DNA from: an uncultured Roseobacter sp.
GTDB taxonomy: Bacteria; Pseudomonadota; Alphaproteobacteria; Rhodobacterales; Rhodobacteraceae
Assembly: GCF_947499265.1 (NCBI RefSeq)
Contig: NZ_CANMNK010000001.1
Coordinates: forward strand, 705,001-769,000
Reading direction: 5' to 3'
DNA: 64,000 nucleotides
Shown here: positions 12,552 through 45,937 of the stretch, piece by piece
How positions within the stretch are numbered: the stretch's first letter is position 1
Layout: every line of letters starts with the position of its first letter
Position numbers and translations under genes: made by a program
Notes under the pieces: generated by a model
What the model was told of the DNA's origin: nothing
Database searches by the model: none
Seen by the model: the letters and a program-made list of their open reading frames with translations, nothing else

Positions 12552-13352
12552 TCATAGCTCCAGGATCAGCGGGCAGTGGTCCGAAACCTCTGGATCATGG
12601 ATAACGTCGAACGTCTTCACGGCCTCCACGTCGCTCACGAGCAGATAGTCGGCAAACCGGCCTGGTTTTTTATATTGCGTATTCCGGGTGCTTTCAAAAC
12701 CGCGCGATGTGACCATTTCGATCAGACCGGCGCCTTTGAGCATATTCAACGTTTCGCTGTCCGGTTCCACGTTAAAGTCGCCGCAGATGATGCGGAGATC
12801 GCCCTGTTCCGATACGGCATCCGAAAGCGCGATCAGCCGACGCGCCTGCGCTGCGCGTTCTGGTGTGTCCATCTTGCCGTTCAAGTCCCGAAGACCATGC
12901 ATATGTGTGATGCTGACGGCACGATCAGACCCATAGTCGAAGACCCGAACCGCATGTGCGCTGCGGGATCTGGGGTGATCGCCATAGCCAACCGGCGAAA
13001 AATCTTTGTGAACGAAACCCTGCACCTGACCAATCACCGGCAAGGACTGATGAACGAATGTTGCAAGGCCCCATTGTGAAGGAACTTCCGTTTCCTCGTC
13101 CCACAAGACGCCTTGGGCGGCTGGGCAAAAGGTCGGGACATGATCAGGTAGGGCGCGGCAGACATCGCGAAAGAAGTTGGCTCTCTGAGGAAGAATATGG
13201 TCGCCATCCCGGTAGGTCAGCCAGTCCAAATCCGTGGCTGGGCTATGAACGACTTCCTGCAGGCATAGGATATCGGGTACCATCTGAGAAACGTAGGGCA
13301 GAAGCTCCTGATTGAGCGTACCGCCCCAGCCATTCAGGCACATGACTCTCAT
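12552..13352 (-). CDS. Endonuclease/exonuclease/phosphatase (EEP) family hydrolase
   Basis: 266 residues. The start ATG at 13352 is preceded by GGAGG and a 7-base spacer. EEP catalytic motifs occur in order: the metal-binding Glu in LCLQEVVHS near residue 32, ITHMHGLRD in the middle, ICGDFNVEP (Asp and Asn) near 190 and the general-base DH pair in VSDHCPLILEL at the extreme C-terminus. The family cleaves phosphodiesters in nucleic acids, inositol phosphates or sphingolipids; there is no signal peptide, so a cytosolic substrate is expected. First gene of a two-gene operon with the unknown 161-residue protein. Confidence 0.88.
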   Translation of the reverse strand: MRVMCLNGWGGTLNQELLPYVSQMVPDILCLQEVVHSPATDLDWLTYRDGDHILPQRANFFRDVCRALPDHVPTFCPAAQGVLWDEETEVPSQWGLATFVHQSLPVIGQVQGFVHKDFSPVGYGDHPRSRSAHAVRVFDYGSDRAVSITHMHGLRDLNGKMDTPERAAQARRLIALSDAVSEQGDLRIICGDFNVEPDSETLNMLKGAGLIEMVTSRGFESTRNTQYKKPGRFADYLLVSDVEAVKTFDVIHDPEVSDHCPLILEL

Positions 13353-13511
13353 TGGTTCGCCTCCTGCAATACCGATACTCCCGCAGCAATGATGGGCGCG
13401 GTCTCCGCCCTTACCAATAGATGAGGCTCGATCTTATGCAAATTTGGACTGCCAATTCTGGGTACTTCCTTCGTTGTAGCCCACTCGTGTCTGGGAGAAA
13501 TGCCAACTCCC

Positions 13512-36892: not shown

Positions 36893-37741
36893 CTACGGAG
36901 CGACATCTACGCCCTCGAACAACAAGGCTTTCTTCAGTTTTGCGTCTCGGCGACACAGGGTGAAATCTTCTTCGGTGAGGCGTCCCTCGGGCGCACCCGC
37001 AATTTCAAAATGCCCAAATTCGTCATCTCCGCTGACCAGCGCCACTAGAGGCCGACCGCCTGACTGCTGCTTCATCGACGGCTTGATGTAGCGAATGGCG
37101 GCTCCGATACGTCGATCATCCGTGGCGTTGGGGCCGGAACTGTGAAACAAATGTCCATGATGCATGGAGGCCTGCCCGGGCTGCAGTTCGGCGGCGACGG
37201 CCTCATCCTCATTCACGTCCACTGCGATTTCCTGACCGCGCGACAACAGATTGTCATCGGCGAAGGTGTCCACATGCGGAACGATCTGTTCGTGGTGGCT
37301 GCCGGGCACAAATTTCATACACCCGCTTTCGACCGTCGCTGGTGACAAGGCAAACCACAGCGTTGTTTCTTCGGCGTCATCGAGCCCCCAATACGTCAGA
37401 TCCTGATGCCAGGACACGATTTTGGGCGAGCGCGCCTCTTTGATGAACAGGGCGGCACTCCACACCATGAGATCAGGACCCAGTGCAGCAGAAGCTGCGG
37501 AAATCAGCGCGTCGTGACGGATCAGCCGGTCGAATGACGGCAGCACTCGATCTGGATAGCTGTAGAGCAGCGCCAGTTTTTCGGGATCACCCGCCAGTTC
37601 GGCTTCGGCCTTTTCCAAGTCGAGGCGCAAGGCATGTGCCGCGTCGGGGTCCACAATATCGATCGGGGCGATGAAGCCATCCCGCTCATAGGTTTCAGCC
37701 ATGCTTTGAGCGTCGGTCGGCATCACGTGAGCCTGTGTCAT
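36893..37741 (-). CDS. Phytanoyl-CoA dioxygenase (PhyH) family Fe(II)/2-oxoglutarate oxygenase
   Basis: 282 residues, jelly-roll dioxygenase. The iron triad is His112-x-Asp114 (SWHQDLTYWG) and His200 in GHLFHSSGPNATDDRRIGA, with the Arg pair (211 region) that holds 2-oxoglutarate. GCMKFVPGSHH near 141 is typical of the family. Bacterial PhyH proteins hydroxylate small molecules of many kinds; the substrate is open. Divergent from a LysR gene 110 bases away that probably controls it. Confidence 0.9.
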   Translation of the reverse strand: MTQAHVMPTDAQSMAETYERDGFIAPIDIVDPDAAHALRLDLEKAEAELAGDPEKLALLYSYPDRVLPSFDRLIRHDALISAASAALGPDLMVWSAALFIKEARSPKIVSWHQDLTYWGLDDAEETTLWFALSPATVESGCMKFVPGSHHEQIVPHVDTFADDNLLSRGQEIAVDVNEDEAVAAELQPGQASMHHGHLFHSSGPNATDDRRIGAAIRYIKPSMKQQSGGRPLVALVSGDDEFGHFEIAGAPEGRLTEEDFTLCRRDAKLKKALLFEGVDVAP

Positions 37742-37851: not shown

Positions 37852-38745
37852 ATGCGCCTGAATGGGTTCGATCTGAACCAGATTATCTGCCTTGATGCGC
37901 TGCTGAGTGAGCGAAACGTCACCCGTGCCGCGGAGCGGGTATATCTCAGCCAGTCGGCTCTGAGTACGGTGTTGGCCCAGCTGCGCAAACACTTCGACGA
38001 CCCTTTGCTGGTGCGCTCGGGTCGGTCGCTGGTCCTGACGCCCTTCGCCAAAACGCTGGTGGCGCCGCTGCGGGAGGTGCTGGGAAAGGCGCAGGTCTTT
38101 TCAGCGATGCGGCCCAACGCAACTACGGATGTCATCGATCGCGAGCTCAAGATCGTGGCGTCAGATTATTCCATGTCCAGTTTTCTGGCCGATGCGATCA
38201 GGGACAGCGCGGCCAACCAGCCCAAGCTGCGCTTTGATATCCTTCCGCTATCGGAACGTTCGGCCCAACTGCTCAGTGCCGGAGAAATTGACCTGATGTT
38301 CGCGGGTCAGGTGCTGGATGTCGGTGTGCCGCCAAATACATCCCTGTTCGAGGATCATTTTGTCTGTTTGGCGTGTAGCGAGACCTTTGCCGCAACAGAA
38401 CAGATATCTCAGTCCGAGTATCTGGCACAAACCCATGTGGTCGTCCGTTATTTTGATCACCAACTGGCCTTTGAAGACGAAGATGCGTTGCGCAAGGCAG
38501 GCCTCAGGCGCGCGCGGCATATTTCAGTGTGGTCCCATTCCATGGTGCCGTCATTGGTTTGCGGAACATCGATGATCGCGACGGTTCCGTCGCGTATCGC
38601 CCATCAGATTGCCCAGCGTTGGCCCGTCAGGATATTCCCGTTCCCAGTAGAGAGTGAGCCCATTCGCGTTTTCGCTTACTGGCATCCCAGTCGCGACGAA
38701 GACATTGTGTTGAAACGGTTTGTTGCGTCGATATCAGAGCGCTGA
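37852..38745 (+). CDS. LysR family transcriptional regulator (NodD/LinR-like subgroup)
   Basis: 297 residues from ATG 37852; longer starts (37807) precede a non-conserved leader. HTH NQIICLDALLSERNVTRAAE, VYLSQSALSTVLAQLRKHF, then the GRSLVLTPFAKTLVAPLRE segment and effector domain (DREIKIVASDYSM-like LKIVASDYSMSSFLADAI). DDPLLVRSGR after the HTH is typical of the NodD/LinR subgroup. Its last 12 bases overlap the 3' end of the convergent IclR gene. Divergent target: the PhyH dioxygenase. Confidence 0.9.
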   Translation: MRLNGFDLNQIICLDALLSERNVTRAAERVYLSQSALSTVLAQLRKHFDDPLLVRSGRSLVLTPFAKTLVAPLREVLGKAQVFSAMRPNATTDVIDRELKIVASDYSMSSFLADAIRDSAANQPKLRFDILPLSERSAQLLSAGEIDLMFAGQVLDVGVPPNTSLFEDHFVCLACSETFAATEQISQSEYLAQTHVVVRYFDHQLAFEDEDALRKAGLRRARHISVWSHSMVPSLVCGTSMIATVPSRIAHQIAQRWPVRIFPFPVESEPIRVFAYWHPSRDEDIVLKRFVASISER

Positions 38746-39549
38746 GCCATCTTCGGAGGCGCCCGCGCCCAATTGCCGCGAGATGTCTTGTCCCGCCTGG
38801 ATCAACAACCCGATGGACGCCTTGATGTCCGGGCTATTCGATCTGGTTAGCCGTTTCACAAACGGGATTGTCAGCGCCGCAATCGCCTCGCCCGAATAGT
38901 TGAAGATCGGTGTTGCGATATTGTGGACCCCGACGATCACCTGCGAGGGGCTGTCGCAATAATTCTGCGCGACGACCTGATCGACCAATGTCTCAAAGAA
39001 AGCGATCCTTTCGTCGGTTGCCTCAGGTGAGCGCGCGTAGATGTCCGCGCGACGCCTTTTGCTGGTTTGCGCCAACAAGACGGCGCCCGAGGCCGTATAG
39101 ACAATGGGAATGCGCGCGCCGAGGCGAACAGAGGTATTGTTGTTACAGGGCGCGTCGGTCTGGGCGATCACGAGGATCTCTGCACCGTGAATAATGGCAA
39201 GATGTACGGACTGGTCCAGATCGCTGGCCAGCTTGTCCATCACATGTACCGCAACGGAGTTCAGCCGCTTGATCGGCGGGTGACGATGCGCCAACTCGAA
39301 CATTTTTTGCGTCAGCGAAAACCGCTCTGTAACGGGGTCGTAGGCCACGTAGTTCCGGTCGGTCAGCACCGCCAGCATCCGAAAAATCTCGCTCAGAGAT
39401 CGATCCAATGCATTTGCAACCTCGGTTTTCTTCATGCCAGTGCTGCGAGAGGCCAAAAGCTCCAGAATATCAAGGCCCTTGGACAGGGCAGGGGCGCTGT
39501 ATTTTTCTGTCTTGGGGCCACTTTCCGATATGTTGGATGATGTGGGAAT
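38734..39549 (-). CDS. IclR family regulator with an apparent ATT start codon
   Basis: 271 residues if started at ATT (39549-39547). The HTH needs KYSAPALSKGLDILELLASR (residues 16-35) and MKKTEVANALDRSLSEIFRM, typical IclR sequence; the first ATG/GTG/TTG in frame is a TTG at 39456, inside the first helix, which would destroy the domain. Upstream, the frame stays open to the lactonase stop at 39604 without any standard start. GGAGG (39557-39561) stands 7 bases before the ATT. Effector domain: ELAHRHPPIKRLNSVAVHVM, IPIVYTASGAVLLAQTSKRR, YSGEAIAALTIPFVK. It probably regulates the adjacent sugar-acid locus. Confidence 0.85.
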   Translation of the reverse strand: MPTSSNISESGPKTEKYSAPALSKGLDILELLASRSTGMKKTEVANALDRSLSEIFRMLAVLTDRNYVAYDPVTERFSLTQKMFELAHRHPPIKRLNSVAVHVMDKLASDLDQSVHLAIIHGAEILVIAQTDAPCNNNTSVRLGARIPIVYTASGAVLLAQTSKRRRADIYARSPEATDERIAFFETLVDQVVAQNYCDSPSQVIVGVHNIATPIFNYSGEAIAALTIPFVKRLTRSNSPDIKASIGLLIQAGQDISRQLGAGASEDGSAL

Positions 39550-39561
39550 TGGTTCGCCTCC
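39547..39561 (-). promoter_or_regulatory. Shine-Dalgarno and ATT initiation site of the IclR gene
   Basis: GGAGGCGAACCA followed by ATT. The same 12 bases, GGAGGCGAACCA, precede the ATG start of the EEP gene at 13352, so the context is a normal initiation site in this genome and only the third base of the start codon differs. Confidence 0.65.
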
Positions 39562-39603
39562 TGGGTCGTTTATCCTGGCGATGCCGCGCTCATGACAGCG
39601 CGC

Positions 39604-40440
39604 TTAGATGCGCCAGAGCCGTTTGGCGTTGCCCTGATAGAGGGCATCACGCTCTGAGTGTGACCAGTCATGTGTCAAGGCGTGCGTCACTGCAACCCAT
39701 GTCTCCAACCCACCGCCCAAATCGCACACCGGGTTGTCGCTGCCCCAGATGATCCGTTCTGGGCCAAATGCGTTGACGGTATGATCAACCCAGGGCCTGA
39801 TGTGATCCAGCGACCAGTTCTCTGCATCTGCATAGGCGATGACACCCGATATTTTGCCAACGACATTCGGGCGTTGCGCGATATCGGACAGGTGTTCGCG
39901 CCAGGGGGACATCTCCCCCTGTGCAATCGCGGGCACCCCGCAGTGATCAAGGATGAACTGAACGTCGGGGCAGTGATCGATCAGGTCGGCCATGAGCGGC
40001 AGCTGATGGGGCAGCGCGCACAGATCAAAGGTCAACCCCGTCCCAGACAAGCGTTTGATATTGTCGCGAAACAGGCTGTTTTGGCTGACCTCGTCCGGCA
40101 CCACATGCAGGACACGACGAAACCCCAGAATCACCGATTTCTCGCGCGCCCAGTCGAGGAATTCAGGGAAATCGGCGGCTTCCGGACGGCAGCTCGAAAT
40201 GGCACCCAACATCAGGCTGTCGGTCTCGCCCGCGAGCCCTTCGATCAGCTCCGATTCTGCTTTGATCAGGTCCGGCGCGACATCCACCTCCATATGCAGG
40301 CAGCCGCTGATCCCCAGCCGTTTCGCCCGACGGGTGTAATCGTCAAACCGGCTGGGTTTGTTCAACGCCTCAAACCCGTCAAGCCAGGGGTAAGACAGCT
40401 TTTCCGGGTAGATCAGATGGAGATGCGTATCAATGAACAT
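39604..40440 (-). CDS. Amidohydrolase family sugar lactonase (L-fuconolactonase/L-rhamnonolactonase-like)
   Basis: 278 residues from the ATG at 40440; the frame extends upstream without conserved sequence. TIM-barrel amidohydrolase-2: MFIDTHLHLIYP at the N-terminus (HxH), GCLHMEVDVAP, QFILDHCGVP near 170 (His), VVGKISGVIAYAD and IIWGSDNPVCDLGGG (Asp) near 240. This subgroup opens lactones of L-fucose/L-rhamnose or 2-pyrone-4,6-dicarboxylate; linkage to an acid-sugar dehydratase and mutarotase favours an aldono-lactone. Divergent from the transporter operon, 133 bases between starts. Confidence 0.87.
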   Translation of the reverse strand: MFIDTHLHLIYPEKLSYPWLDGFEALNKPSRFDDYTRRAKRLGISGCLHMEVDVAPDLIKAESELIEGLAGETDSLMLGAISSCRPEAADFPEFLDWAREKSVILGFRRVLHVVPDEVSQNSLFRDNIKRLSGTGLTFDLCALPHQLPLMADLIDHCPDVQFILDHCGVPAIAQGEMSPWREHLSDIAQRPNVVGKISGVIAYADAENWSLDHIRPWVDHTVNAFGPERIIWGSDNPVCDLGGGLETWVAVTHALTHDWSHSERDALYQGNAKRLWRI

Positions 40441-40464
40441 AGTCGATTTCCGAAGGTTGCATCG

Positions 40465-40505
40465 TGAATTGACTCTCTGACTATTATATATGAAAGTCAA
40501 GTTCA
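40465..40505. promoter_or_regulatory. Candidate operator in the lactonase/transporter divergent promoter
   Basis: TGAATTGACT (40465-40474) and AGTCAAGTTCA (40495-40505) form an imperfect inverted repeat flanking the AT-rich CTATTATATATG core, inside the 133-base interval between two divergent operons. It would suit a dimeric regulator such as the nearby IclR protein controlling both directions. Confidence 0.4.
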
Positions 40506-40573
40506 CATCCAAAACATCAACGCGGGTAAACCGCGCGGCCAGACGCGACAACAACGTTCCTTGGGAGGACATC

Positions 40574-41887
40574 ATGAGACTATCGGTTCAAATGGCGCTG
40601 AAGGGCGCGACGGCCGGGGCGGCCTTGTTTGCGGCCCTGCCTGTATCAGCGGGCGAATTCGACGGCATCACGCTGCAGGCCAAGCTGATCGGCGGCCAGC
40701 AATACGAAGCACTTTATGCGCGCATCGCCGAATGGGAGGCCGACACTGGCGCCACCGTTGAGGTGATTTCGAAAAAGAACCACTTCGAACTGGATAAGGA
40801 ATTCAAATCCGACCTTGCGGCGGGCACGCTAGGCTGGTGCGTTGGGTCGAACCACAGTTCCTTTGCCTCGCAATACCCAAGCCTTTACACAGATCTCACA
40901 CCCTATCTGACGCCGGAGTTCATTGCGGAATATGTGCCCTCCAACGTAGCCGCATCAAAGATCGGCGATGCCCTGGTCATGCTGCCGCGCGCCCAATTTG
41001 ACGTCTCGGCCCTGTATTATCTGAAATCGCTTTACGAAGACGAAGGCAACCAATCCGCGTTCAAAGCCGAATACGGCTACGATCTGGCCCCGCCCGACAC
41101 TTGGGACCAGTACAAGGATCAAGCGATATTCTTCACGGATGCGCCCAACTTCTATGGCACCCAATATGCGGGCAAAGACGAAGCGATTGTCGGCCGCTTT
41201 TACGAAATGGTGATTGCCGAAGGCGGTCAGCTTTTCAACGATGACTGGTCGCCCGCTTTCAATTCCGATGCGGGCAAACGCGCGCTGAGCTGGTTTGTGG
41301 ATCTCTACAAAGCCGGTGCGGTGCCTCCGGGCACAACCTCATATCTTTGGGATGATCTGGGGCAGGGCTTTGCCTCTGGCACAATCGCGCTGAACCTCGA
41401 TTGGCCCGGCTGGGCGGGTTTCTTCAACGGGGAAGACAGCTCAAAAGCCGCTGGGGATGTGGGCGTCATCGTGCAGCCACAGGGCAGCGCAGGGATCCGC
41501 ACCGGATGGTCCGGGCACCACGGGTTCTCGGTCACAGAATCCTGTGATCACAAGGACGCCGCCGCGTCACTGGTCGCCTTTCTGACCAATGAAGACAGCC
41601 AAAAGCTGGAATCCTCTGCCGGGCCGCTCCCAACCCGCACCGCCGTCTGGGATCACGTGGTCGAACAATCGAGCTCGGACCCCTATCGGTCGGAAGTTTT
41701 GGTGGCCTTTCAACAAGCAGCCACTCATGCGTTTCCCGCCCCGCAGACACCCTATTGGATCGAAGCGACCAACGTGATTTTTCCTGAACTTCAAGCCGCG
41801 ATCTTGGGGGACAAAACCGTCGATGAGGCGCTCGAAACGGCGGCGGAGGCCGTTGACGAGATGATGCAAGAAAACGGGGTCTACTGA
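40574..41887 (+). CDS. Sugar ABC transporter extracellular binding protein (CUT1 family)
   Basis: 437 residues from the ATG at 40574 (TGGGAGGAC just before). Signal peptide residues 1-25 ending SAG. Family-1 binding protein with the opening GITLQAKLIGGQQYEALYAR, IAEWEADTGATVEVISKKNH, then PDTWDQYKDQAIFFT, SYLWDDLGQGFASGTIALNL and EALETAAEAVDEMMQENGVY at the end. It binds a mono- or oligosaccharide in the periplasm. Translation precedes a stable hairpin (41901-41930) before the permease gene, usual for overproducing binding protein. Confidence 0.92.
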   Translation: MRLSVQMALKGATAGAALFAALPVSAGEFDGITLQAKLIGGQQYEALYARIAEWEADTGATVEVISKKNHFELDKEFKSDLAAGTLGWCVGSNHSSFASQYPSLYTDLTPYLTPEFIAEYVPSNVAASKIGDALVMLPRAQFDVSALYYLKSLYEDEGNQSAFKAEYGYDLAPPDTWDQYKDQAIFFTDAPNFYGTQYAGKDEAIVGRFYEMVIAEGGQLFNDDWSPAFNSDAGKRALSWFVDLYKAGAVPPGTTSYLWDDLGQGFASGTIALNLDWPGWAGFFNGEDSSKAAGDVGVIVQPQGSAGIRTGWSGHHGFSVTESCDHKDAAASLVAFLTNEDSQKLESSAGPLPTRTAVWDHVVEQSSSDPYRSEVLVAFQQAATHAFPAPQTPYWIEATNVIFPELQAAILGDKTVDEALETAAEAVDEMMQENGVY

Positions 41888-41900
41888 CCACGTTCTCCCC

Positions 41901-41930
41901 GGGCAAGGGCGGCTTCGGCTGTCCTTGCCC
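41901..41930 (+). repeat. Hairpin between binding-protein and permease genes
   Basis: GGGCAAGG (41901-41908) and CCTTGCCC (41923-41930) around a GC-rich 14-base loop, in the 57-base gap after the binding-protein stop. No T-tract, so it likely stabilises the upstream mRNA or partly attenuates transcription, as in the malE-malF gap. Confidence 0.6.
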
Positions 41931-41944
41931 ACCTTTGGGCTGCA

Positions 41945-42859
41945 ATGGAAAATCCATACTCTATGTCTCGTCTGAAATTGCCCCAGTGGTTTGTGTTGTT
42001 GCTGCCGGCGATCATCATTTTGTCCGCTGTGGTGCTGATCCCGTTGCTGCTGTCGCTTTACTCAAGCTTCACGCCTTACCGGCTGACGCGTCCGGAAACG
42101 CTCTACAAGTGGATCGGGACCTTCAACTATGAAAAAGCCATCACAAACGCCAACTTCTGGGCGGCCTTCGGGCGTACCGTTCTGCTTTTGACGATTGCCC
42201 TGAATGTCGAGATGCTACTTGGCCTCGGGCTTGCGCTTTTGGTCAACAGGGTCACCTGGGGCCAGCGCGGGTTGCGCACGCTGATGATGTTTCCAATGAT
42301 GTTCTCGCCCGTGCTTGTGGGCTTCCAGTTCAAGTTCATCTTCAACGACAATGTCGGCCTGGTGAACAACGCGCTGCAATCGCTGGGCTTTTCGGATGTT
42401 GCGATCCCATGGCTTGTCGATGCAAATCTGGCGATGTTCTCGATCATCTTCGCCGAGGTCTGGACCTCCACCAGTGTCTTTGCCATCCTCATCCTTGCAG
42501 GTCTATTCGCCATTCCGCGTGACCCGCTGGAGGCCGCTAAGGTCGACGGGTGTACGCCCTGGCAGACTTTCCGCCACATCACGCTGCCCTATCTGATGCC
42601 CTTTATCTACATCGCACTCGCGATCCGCAGCCTCGACGTGGCGCGCGCCTATGACATCGTGCAGATCATGACCAATGGCGGCCCCGCGCGCCGCACTGAG
42701 CTGATCTGGACCATGATCGGACGCACAGGTTATGTCGATGCCAAGATGGGTTACGCCAACGCCATGGGGTACATCTCTATCTTCCTTGCGATCTTCTTCA
42801 CCATCTATTTCTTCAAGAAGCTCAATGCCGCGCGCACAGAGCTTGGGATGGGCGGGTAA
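41945..42859 (+). CDS. Sugar ABC transporter permease (MalF-type, CUT1)
   Basis: 304 residues, six to seven spans. The cytoplasmic coupling loop has the EAA motif EAAKVDGCTPWQTFRHITLP near residue 196. The start may be 41945 or the ATG at 41963; both precede the first span. It pairs with the next permease and the ATPase as the inner-membrane channel. Five bases separate it from the second permease gene. Confidence 0.92.
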   Translation: MENPYSMSRLKLPQWFVLLLPAIIILSAVVLIPLLLSLYSSFTPYRLTRPETLYKWIGTFNYEKAITNANFWAAFGRTVLLLTIALNVEMLLGLGLALLVNRVTWGQRGLRTLMMFPMMFSPVLVGFQFKFIFNDNVGLVNNALQSLGFSDVAIPWLVDANLAMFSIIFAEVWTSTSVFAILILAGLFAIPRDPLEAAKVDGCTPWQTFRHITLPYLMPFIYIALAIRSLDVARAYDIVQIMTNGGPARRTELIWTMIGRTGYVDAKMGYANAMGYISIFLAIFFTIYFFKKLNAARTELGMGG

Positions 42860-42864
42860 GCGAT

Positions 42865-43731
42865 ATGGATATCAACCTGCGCCACCGCATCCGGGCCCGC
42901 CTTTTGAAGGCGGCACAGATGGTCACCCTGTTCATCGCCATGTCGATCATCTGCATTCCAGGGCTTTGGGTCGTGCTCAACAGTTTCCGTCCCACGGTCG
43001 AGATCATGGCAAAGCCGCCGGTCTGGATCCCCAATGAGCTGAACCTCGATCACTACCGCGCCATGTTTGGCGGGGTCGGTCAGGGCGGGGTGCCCGTGCT
43101 GCAGTATTTCACCAACTCGCTGATCATCTCGATCACCTCGACCCTCATTGCGATCCTTGTCGGCATGGCGGGCGGCTATGCTTTCGCGCGCTATCGGTTC
43201 AAGGGCAAGGGCGCGATCTTTATTGGCCTTATGCTGACCCGCGCCGTGCCGGGTGTGGCCCTGTCCCTGCCGCTCTTTATCGTGATGGCCCGGACCGGGC
43301 TGATCGACACGCATATCGGGTTGATCATCGTCTATGTTGCTATGAACGTGCCCTTCACGATCTGGCTCATCGACGGTTTCTTTCGACAGGTTCCGCGTGA
43401 GCTGGCTGAGGCGGCAGAGATTGACGGCTGCACGCGCTGGCAGGCCTTCTGGAAGGTTGAATTTCCCGTGGCGCGTGCCGGTGTCGCATCGGCCGGTATC
43501 TTTGCCTTTCTGACGTCCTGGAACGAATATGCGCTGGCCAGCCAGCTGACGCGCTCGACATTCTCCAAGACCATGCCGGTGGGTCTGCGCGACTTCACGT
43601 CTGAATTCACAATCAACTGGGGCGGGATGTGCGCACTTGCCGTGCTTATGATCATCCCCGCGCTCATCCTGACATTCCTCGTACAAAAACACCTGATTGC
43701 CGGACTGACCTTCGGCGGGGTGAAAGGGTAG
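42865..43731 (+). CDS. Sugar ABC transporter permease (MalG-type, CUT1)
   Basis: 288 residues, six spans. EAA motif EAAEIDGCTRWQAFWKVEFP near residue 184. Characteristic C-terminal FLTSWNEYALASQLTRS and LIAGLTFGGVKG. Second subunit of the channel; two bases before the ATPase gene. Confidence 0.93.
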   Translation: MDINLRHRIRARLLKAAQMVTLFIAMSIICIPGLWVVLNSFRPTVEIMAKPPVWIPNELNLDHYRAMFGGVGQGGVPVLQYFTNSLIISITSTLIAILVGMAGGYAFARYRFKGKGAIFIGLMLTRAVPGVALSLPLFIVMARTGLIDTHIGLIIVYVAMNVPFTIWLIDGFFRQVPRELAEAAEIDGCTRWQAFWKVEFPVARAGVASAGIFAFLTSWNEYALASQLTRSTFSKTMPVGLRDFTSEFTINWGGMCALAVLMIIPALILTFLVQKHLIAGLTFGGVKG

Positions 43732-43733
43732 CT

Positions 43734-44825
43734 ATGGCGCAAGTCCATCTGAAAAATGTGTCCAAGAGCTATGGGGCGCTGGAGGTGGTGCATGGCATCA
43801 ACCTTGACATCGATCACAATGAATTTGTGGTGCTTGTCGGCCCCTCAGGCTGCGGCAAATCCACAACGCTGCGTATGATCGCCGGGCTGGAAAGCATCAC
43901 GGGCGGCGATGTTCTGATTGGTGAAAATATCGTCAACGACCTGCCCCCACGCGACCGGAACATCTCCATGGTGTTTCAGAATTATGCGCTTTATCCGCAT
44001 ATGACCGTGGGCGAGAATCTTGGCTTTTCGCTGAAAATCGCAGGCAAGTCGCAAGATCAGATCGACGCAGCGGTGGCCGAAGCGGCTGCAATCCTCAGCC
44101 TTACCGAATATCTTGAGCGCAAGCCCGGCGCGCTGTCCGGCGGGCAGCGTCAGCGGGTCGCCATGGGACGCGCCATTGTGCGCCACCCGGACGTCTTCTT
44201 GTTCGACGAGCCGCTGTCCAATCTTGATGCCAAACTGCGCGCGCAGATGCGGGTGGAGATCAAGAAGCTGCACCAGAAGATCCAGACAACCATCGTCTAT
44301 GTGACCCATGATCAGGTCGAAGCCATGACCCTGGCAGACCGGATCGTGATCATGCGGGATGGGCATATCGAACAGCAGGGAACCCCGCTTGAGGTCTTCG
44401 AAGCCCCTGCCAATACCTTTGTTGCGACCTTTATCGGATCGCCCCCGATGAACCTGCTGGACGGGATCGTTCAACAGGACGGAACGTTGCAGCTGGGAGG
44501 GGGCGTGACCCTGAACGTGCCCCAGCAATACACCGCAAAAACGCGCCCCGGACAAAAGGTGGTGCTGGGCTTTCGGGCCGACAACCTGATGCCGTGTGGA
44601 CATTCCCTGCCGATGGAAGGCGAAAGCGCCGAGATCGAGATGACGGTCGTTCTGTCTGAGCCATTGGGCACCGAGACATTGCTTTTTGGCGCCCTTGCTG
44701 GCCAGGAGGTGCAGGCCAAAATGCTCAACCCGCGCCCGGTGAGCAATGGTGAACGCATGATGTTCAACCTGGATCTGACCCGCGTGCATCTTTTCGATGG
44801 CGAAAGTCAGAAGAGCCTGAGGTAG
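43734..44825 (+). CDS. Sugar ABC transporter ATP-binding protein (UgpC/MsmK type)
   Basis: 363 residues from the ATG at 43734; a longer frame inside the permease gene is not used. Walker A GPSGCGKSTTLRMIAG near 35, signature LSGGQRQRVAMGRAIV, Walker B VFLFDEPLSNLDA, switch THDQVEAMTLADRI. The C-terminal 120 residues form the TOBE/regulatory domain of MalK-type ATPases (GFRADNLMPCGHSLPMEG). Energises the transporter encoded just upstream. Confidence 0.95.
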   Translation: MAQVHLKNVSKSYGALEVVHGINLDIDHNEFVVLVGPSGCGKSTTLRMIAGLESITGGDVLIGENIVNDLPPRDRNISMVFQNYALYPHMTVGENLGFSLKIAGKSQDQIDAAVAEAAAILSLTEYLERKPGALSGGQRQRVAMGRAIVRHPDVFLFDEPLSNLDAKLRAQMRVEIKKLHQKIQTTIVYVTHDQVEAMTLADRIVIMRDGHIEQQGTPLEVFEAPANTFVATFIGSPPMNLLDGIVQQDGTLQLGGGVTLNVPQQYTAKTRPGQKVVLGFRADNLMPCGHSLPMEGESAEIEMTVVLSEPLGTETLLFGALAGQEVQAKMLNPRPVSNGERMMFNLDLTRVHLFDGESQKSLR

Positions 44826-44827
44826 CC

Positions 44828-45937
44828 ATGGCCCGTATCGTTTCAGCTGAAATTCTGATGGTTGACCTTGAACCCAAGGTCAAACGCACGGATGCGATTC
44901 AGTCTTTTGAAAGCCAGGAAACCCCGATCGTGCGGATTGTCGACAGCGACGGTGCGGAAGGTGTCGGTTACGCCTATACGATTGGGCAAGGCGGGCCCGC
45001 TGTCATGTCGTTGTTGCGTGATACGATGGTGCCCCGGCTCATTGGACGCGAAGCCGAGGACATCGGGCGCATCTGGCGGGATCTGTTGTTCGCTACCCAT
45101 GCGACGGCGGTCGGCGCGATCACCTCGCTGGCCCTTGCGGCCATTGACACCGCCTTGTGGGATTTGCGTTGCCGAAAGGCCGGTTTGCCGCTGTTCCGCA
45201 TGCTGGGCGGTGCGAAGGACAGCGTGCCGATGTACACCACCGAAGGCGGCTGGCTGCACATTTCGACCGAAGACCTCGTGGCGGATGCGCTGGCCGCACA
45301 GGCCAGGGGGTTTGCCGGCTCCAAGATCAAGATCGGTCGACCGCATTTGTCTGAGGACCGCGAAAGACTGAAAGCGGTGCGCGCGGCTGTGGGGCCGGGC
45401 TATGAGATCATGGTCGACGCCAATCAAAGTATGTCACGTGCCGAGGCCACGCGCCGCGCGCGCATGCTCGAAGAGTTCGACATTGCCTGGTTCGAAGAGC
45501 CGATGCCCGCCGACGATGTGATGGAACATGCGGGCCTCGCGGCCAGCACCTCTGTACCGATTGCGGTGGGCGAAAGCATGTATTCGCTCAGCCAATTCAA
45601 GGACTATCTGGTCACCGGCGGCGCCAGCATCGTGCAGGTCGATGTCGCCCGGATTGGTGGCATCACCCCCTGGATGAAAGTCGCGCATCTGGCCGAAGCG
45701 CATAACGTACCGGTCTGCCCGCATTTCCTGATGGAACTTCATCTGAGCCTTGTCTGCGCCATCCCGAATGCGCCATGGTTGGAATACATCCCGCAATTGG
45801 ACGGTCTGACGCGCACACAGATGAAAGTCTCCGACGGGCGCGCTTACCCGTCGACCGCGCCCGGTTTGGGGATCGACTGGGACTGGGACGCGATCGATGC
45901 GGCTCGGATTGACGGTTTGACCGCAAAGTTTGGCTAG
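44828..45937 (+). CDS. Enolase superfamily acid-sugar dehydratase (mandelate racemase subgroup)
   Basis: 369 residues. Capping domain then barrel with SKIKIGRPH (the KxK pair near residue 165), the metal ligands Asp in MVDANQSM, Glu in WFEEPMP and Glu in AVGESMYSL, and the base His in PHFLMELHL. This residue set (KxK plus His) belongs to the mandelate racemase-type dehydratases such as L-fuconate, L-rhamnonate, galactonate or gluconate dehydratases, which make 2-keto-3-deoxy acids. Two bases downstream of the ATPase gene, in a transporter-enzyme operon. Confidence 0.9.
   Translation: MARIVSAEILMVDLEPKVKRTDAIQSFESQETPIVRIVDSDGAEGVGYAYTIGQGGPAVMSLLRDTMVPRLIGREAEDIGRIWRDLLFATHATAVGAITSLALAAIDTALWDLRCRKAGLPLFRMLGGAKDSVPMYTTEGGWLHISTEDLVADALAAQARGFAGSKIKIGRPHLSEDRERLKAVRAAVGPGYEIMVDANQSMSRAEATRRARMLEEFDIAWFEEPMPADDVMEHAGLAASTSVPIAVGESMYSLSQFKDYLVTGGASIVQVDVARIGGITPWMKVAHLAEAHNVPVCPHFLMELHLSLVCAIPNAPWLEYIPQLDGLTRTQMKVSDGRAYPSTAPGLGIDWDWDAIDAARIDGLTAKFG

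Follow-up and report, generated by a model that had tools for sequence, protein, structure and literature searches.

An IclR-family regulator gene lacking a canonical start codon in an uncultured Roseobacter: ATT as candidate initiation codon

A gene for an IclR-family regulator lies on the minus strand of the analyzed stretch of Roseobacter DNA (64,000 nucleotides; hereafter the window). Its reading frame extends from 38734 to 39603 and is open back to a TAA at 39606-39604, which is itself the stop codon of an amidohydrolase gene located upstream in the same direction (39604-40575, minus strand; PF04909, with a distant match to L-fucono-1,5-lactonase). The listed start of this amidohydrolase at 40575 is doubtful, because the conserved part of the ORF begins only at about 40440. 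Oriented divergently are the genes of a sugar ABC transporter (a solute-binding protein, two permeases and a UgpC-type ATPase) and of an enolase-superfamily dehydratase (40490-45937, plus strand); the cluster also includes a Gfo/Idh/MocA oxidoreductase and a 109-codon ORF whose position is taken in two relatives by an annotated L-rhamnose mutarotase. The ATPase passes the cut-off of the UgpC subfamily (491.5 bits vs 432); for the amidohydrolase, the dehydratase and the oxidoreductase, all NCBIfam matches stay under the cut-offs. The cluster is kept in relatives: the amidohydrolase, IclR and transporter genes are found together in 9 of 11 relative stretches. The other two hold only the amidohydrolase and IclR genes; one of them (L030) is a short contig, while the second (L032) contains just this pair even though it is 17 kb long. 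At its other end, the IclR gene converges with a LysR gene on the plus strand, and the two overlap by 12 bases (38734-38745).

The encoded protein belongs to the IclR family, with an N-terminal HTH_IclR and a C-terminal IclR_C domain, both above cut-off. Read from an ATT codon at 39549, which would yield a gene of 271 codons plus stop (38734-39549, minus strand), HTH_IclR is matched over its full profile (positions 1-52) with 42.8 bits (cut-off 22), and IclR_C with 69.9 bits (cut-off 24). The protein shares these two domains with regulators of the PcaR and KdgR type but, unlike members of such named subfamilies, its best NCBIfam matches (pcaR_pcaU, 103.1 of 284.75 bits; KdgR, 97.3 of 275 bits) remain far under the family cut-offs, as do all others; hence we assign it to no named IclR subfamily. 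The body of the gene is intact, and purifying selection acts on it: the frame is free of internal stops, the domains are complete, and a comparison of 265 codons with the nearest relative, a member of the genus whose protein is 77% identical (G012; contig CANKZM010000011.1), gives a pN of 0.146 against a saturated pS of 0.766. For the N-terminal arm alone, only 9 codons can be aligned with G012, and dN/dS has no power there.

What is missing is a canonical start codon. None of the 49 in-frame codons from 39603 to just before a TTG at 39456 is ATG, GTG or TTG, and this TTG (39454-39456, minus strand) is where the frame first offers a canonical codon. The preliminary description had already claimed the lack of a standard start upstream of 39456, and its placement of a GGAGG at 39561-39557, 7 bases before the ATT at 39549, is likewise confirmed. 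The near-cognate codons among the 49 are ATC 39582, ATA 39573, ATT 39549, ATA 39531, CTG 39486, ATT 39468 and CTG 39465.

Shine-Dalgarno (SD) pairing with the 16S tail was scored for the near-cognates in frame and for some other codons. The strongest match scored in the stretch, at -10.3 kcal/mol (with anti-SD letters supplied independently of this genome's 16S gene), is that of CCAGGAGGC, whose core GGAGG (39557-39561, minus strand) precedes the ATT (39547-39549) at a spacing of 6-7 bases. All other codons scored between 39603 and 39456 reach -5.4 or weaker: ATC 39582 has -1.9, ATA 39573 has -2.8 and ATA 39531 has no SD, and TTG 39456 has -5.2, its spacer measuring just 3 bases. Further in, TTG 39408 scores -7.1, but it is located inside the HTH domain. 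ATT 39549 is thereby the sole near-cognate of the stretch with a strong and correctly spaced SD. An SD this strong stands at the canonical start of 3 out of 53 window genes, the EEP gene discussed below among them; this gene set is a simple, crude tiling of the window that includes some doubtful ORFs and scores the IclR row at its TTG codons. Because only 0.4% of 3000 sampled ATT, ATC and ATA codons (drawn from the 5281 on the two strands of the window) are preceded by an equally strong match, the placement of the SD before ATT 39549 is more than chance.

Upstream of this SD, an inverted repeat (GCGCGCT/AGCGCG, 39585-39603, minus strand) directly follows the amidohydrolase stop. The predicted fold of this intergenic RNA, taken over the 121 bases surrounding the repeat, is no more stable than that of shuffled sequences (z = -0.31). 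A seven-codon ATG ORF in another frame (39570-39593, minus strand; MSAASPG, TAA) also lies between the amidohydrolase gene and the SD; it has no SD of its own, and no role for it, such as re-initiation, is apparent.

The boundary of the DNA-binding domain bears on the choice of the start as well. If translation began at TTG 39456, the HTH_IclR match would start only at position 15 of the 52-position profile and would score 22.7 bits in place of 42.8, barely over the cut-off; the protein would also lack KYSAPALSKGLDILEL, residues that hardly vary in the alignment set of 12 relatives. Given this truncation and the short spacer, we reject TTG 39456 as the start codon. From the ATT, in turn, the arm preceding the EKY motif would comprise 14 residues, within the 7 to 18 residues seen in 11 relatives with an ATG start.

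Homologs of the gene are sparsely distributed. It occurs in 3 of 18 other genomes of the genus (E <= 1e-20), in 11 of 393 other genomes of the family sample (E <= 1e-60) and in 1 of 384 other genomes of the class sample (E <= 1e-50). A search for other strains retrieved no relative from viral contigs and a single locus from genome contigs, which is the same as G012 by its start-region sequence; plasmid searches gave distant relatives only. The start regions of 21 relatives (12 + 9) could be compared, and all 21 possess at least one in-frame ATG, GTG or TTG upstream of the [KR]YxAPAL motif, which the ATT of the window precedes by 14 codons. Among the first 12 relatives, an ATG precedes the motif by 7 to 18 codons in 11; in L029 two TTG codons do so, by 9 and 11 codons. 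In L059, from the second set, the nearest canonical codon is a GTG. These relatives do not amount to 21 independent orthologs, as L013 and L057 are near-identical and L055, L056 and L059 share no more than 37-39% identity, and the presence of a canonical codon does not prove its use. The three genus relatives with the gene all carry ATG, and the ATT is not common to them. Conservation of a near-cognate codon among orthologs, as in infC, would be supportive without being required; here, all 21 relatives have a canonical codon in frame upstream of the motif. Going by these start regions, this genome alone among those compared lacks a canonical start.

As to the origin of the ATT, I---PTSSN of the window stands opposite MTIKPTSKD of G012 in the protein alignment, with three extra codons after the G012 ATG and another gap, five long, ahead of PK. 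If the Pro-Thr-Ser codons correspond, the ATG of G012 lies three codons further out, so that more than a substitution is needed to account for the difference; a DNA alignment computed without internal gaps does not line these codons up. Because the arm is short and variable, the correspondence of its codons is not fixed. The earlier proposal that a single-base change turned ATG into ATT is therefore possible but not demonstrated; the ortholog comparison suggested along with it shows that relatives do carry a canonical codon upstream of the motif.

Genes of this kind are known, and infC offers a positive control within the same lineage. In this genome, infC has ATC at the conserved IARRPHNAPP start position, behind AAGGA, and the same codon occupies this position in 19 out of 19 genus genomes. 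No in-frame ATG, GTG or TTG is present between the upstream stop and the ATC in 16 of the 19; the three with such a codon are L035 (this genome), L042 and L049. The sequences indicate that the lineage very probably starts infC at a near-cognate codon. In L035 itself (contig C8, approximately 1114-1400; genus set L035 and L037-L054), an ATG in the same frame, eight codons further up, could lead gene finders astray.

In E. coli, AUU starts are reported for infC and pcnB (PMC9410913), and the infC start codon is part of the autoregulation of IF3 (PMC5472188, PMC9410913). The IclR gene resembles infC (AUU in E. coli, ATC in the genus) in combining a near-cognate codon with an SD; however, the infC codon is conserved, whereas the IclR ATT is confined to a single genome and shows no sign of feedback. 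A non-essential E. coli gene with an AUU start is pcnB (PMC9410913), whose protein is unrelated to IclR and whose start was derived from experiments, while the IclR ATT is proposed from sequence only. Another case is the PncA protein of Borrelia burgdorferi (pncA / BBE22), with an AUU start (PMC13398362): as for the IclR gene, the complete domain needs an N-terminus upstream of the canonical start that was annotated, but the AUU of pncA has genetic and biochemical support as well as a crystal structure behind it (PMC13398362). The Streptomyces gene sigR starts at GTC and is repressed by IF3 (PMC5472188). Like the IclR gene, it combines a non-canonical start with a role in regulating transcription; it differs in that the codon is GTC instead of ATT, the product is a sigma factor and the effect was shown by experiment. 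In Ruegeria pomeroyi, initiator codons are reported to be distributed as 94% ATG, 5% GTG and 1% TTG (PMC3305630). None of the listed titles and abstract openings of open-licence papers deals with ATT initiation in an IclR gene; the gene described here adds a candidate to a kind that is known but rare.

Taken together, the locus is best read as starting translation at ATT 39549, which we consider probable. Points against it are the canonical codons present in all 21 relatives, the initiator codon usage reported for R. pomeroyi and the SD of TTG 39408, although this TTG falls within the HTH. The preliminary description had proposed the same start, and this part of it is upheld by the SD, the domain boundary, the N-terminal lengths of the relatives and the intact coding sequence; what it said on origin and regulation is weak. 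According to this model, the strong SD CCAGGAGGC would place the ribosome at the ATT, where translation would begin with fMet; the expected N-terminus is PTSSNISESGPK, the Met being removed before Pro. Because IF3 discriminates against AUU, the output per mRNA should be well under that of an AUG start, but the strong SD may offset part of this loss, and few copies suffice for a regulator. The product would then be a working regulator beside a cluster for the uptake and breakdown of a sugar or sugar acid. Initiation in vivo, its low rate and its sensitivity to IF3 are all inferred. With respect to the suggested "low or regulated translation", lower output is thus likely on general grounds; regulation finds no supporting sign, and the ATT is absent from the three genus relatives. 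A more far-reaching idea holds that selection has kept the ATT in this species, so that a repressor of the sugar cluster (a role we assume for the IclR protein) is held at a low, IF3-sensitive level and the state of the translation machinery sets how easily the cluster is switched on; we regard it as very unlikely.

Other explanations have to be weighed against initiation at the ATT. The start codon could have been lost in this strain by a point change or a small indel, leaving the regulator effectively silenced and the neighboring cluster misregulated. This is unlikely in our opinion, though it agrees with the absence of a canonical start from this genome only, with the ATG of the three genus relatives and with the indels that separate the N-terminal arm from that of G012. 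Against it speak the strong SD and the absence of a second lesion, internal stops or incomplete domains included; these arguments are weak, because synonymous sites are saturated relative to G012 and a start lost only recently would have left nothing else to see. Somewhat less likely still is an error of sequencing or assembly, in which case the ATT would be a misreading, or the N-terminal arm would conceal a small indel, and the true start would be an ordinary codon. One wrong base would suffice, and nothing here contradicts a misread at the ATT itself; the assembly figures, on the other hand, are good (28 contigs, completeness 100, contamination 0.13).

An indel upstream of PK-x-EKY would be compatible with the comparison to G012, which secures the frame only from that motif onward, and a GTG at 39521 is present there in the next frame. 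Such a hidden frameshift is disfavored, since this GTG is almost without an SD (-1.1) and the indel would leave the very strong SD at the ATT unexplained. It is also highly improbable that another in-frame codon serves as start, be it ATA 39531, ATC 39582 or ATA 39573, or TTG 39456 with a truncated protein. All of these are in frame, and the TTG is the first canonical one; yet the former three have weak SDs or none, and the TTG has the short spacer and cuts into the HTH.

If initiation at the ATT is true, a transcription regulator joins the few bacterial genes known with an AUU start, and the comparison of orthologs combined with SD placement is able to find such genes. Start prediction relies on ATG, GTG and TTG, as stated in PMC5472188; consequently, a gene of this type would be called too short and part of its DNA-binding domain lost. 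If, instead, the private loss of the start is true, the locus represents a small case of regulator decay.

The ribosome-binding site of the IclR gene has a counterpart elsewhere in the window. As had been reported, the same 12 bases, GGAGGCGAACCA, come immediately ahead of the ATG of the EEP gene (13352), which encodes an Exo_endo_phos protein (Pfam). With up to one mismatch allowed, the window contains two copies, both exact (0.50 expected; 9 of 100 shuffles reach two), and the whole 5.23 Mb assembly contains these two and no others, compared with one for a reversed-pattern control. The full shared stretch is 16 bases long (CAGGAGGCGAACCAAT, minus strand; 13351-13366 and 39548-39563) and lies at the two ribosome-binding sites. 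The sharing alone is not striking, given that eight different exact repeats of at least 16 bases occur in the window; we do not use it as evidence. The longest of the eight is a 20-base exact inverted match between a PhyH gene (37642-37661, plus strand) and the IclR gene (38916-38935, minus strand), 1.3 kb apart.
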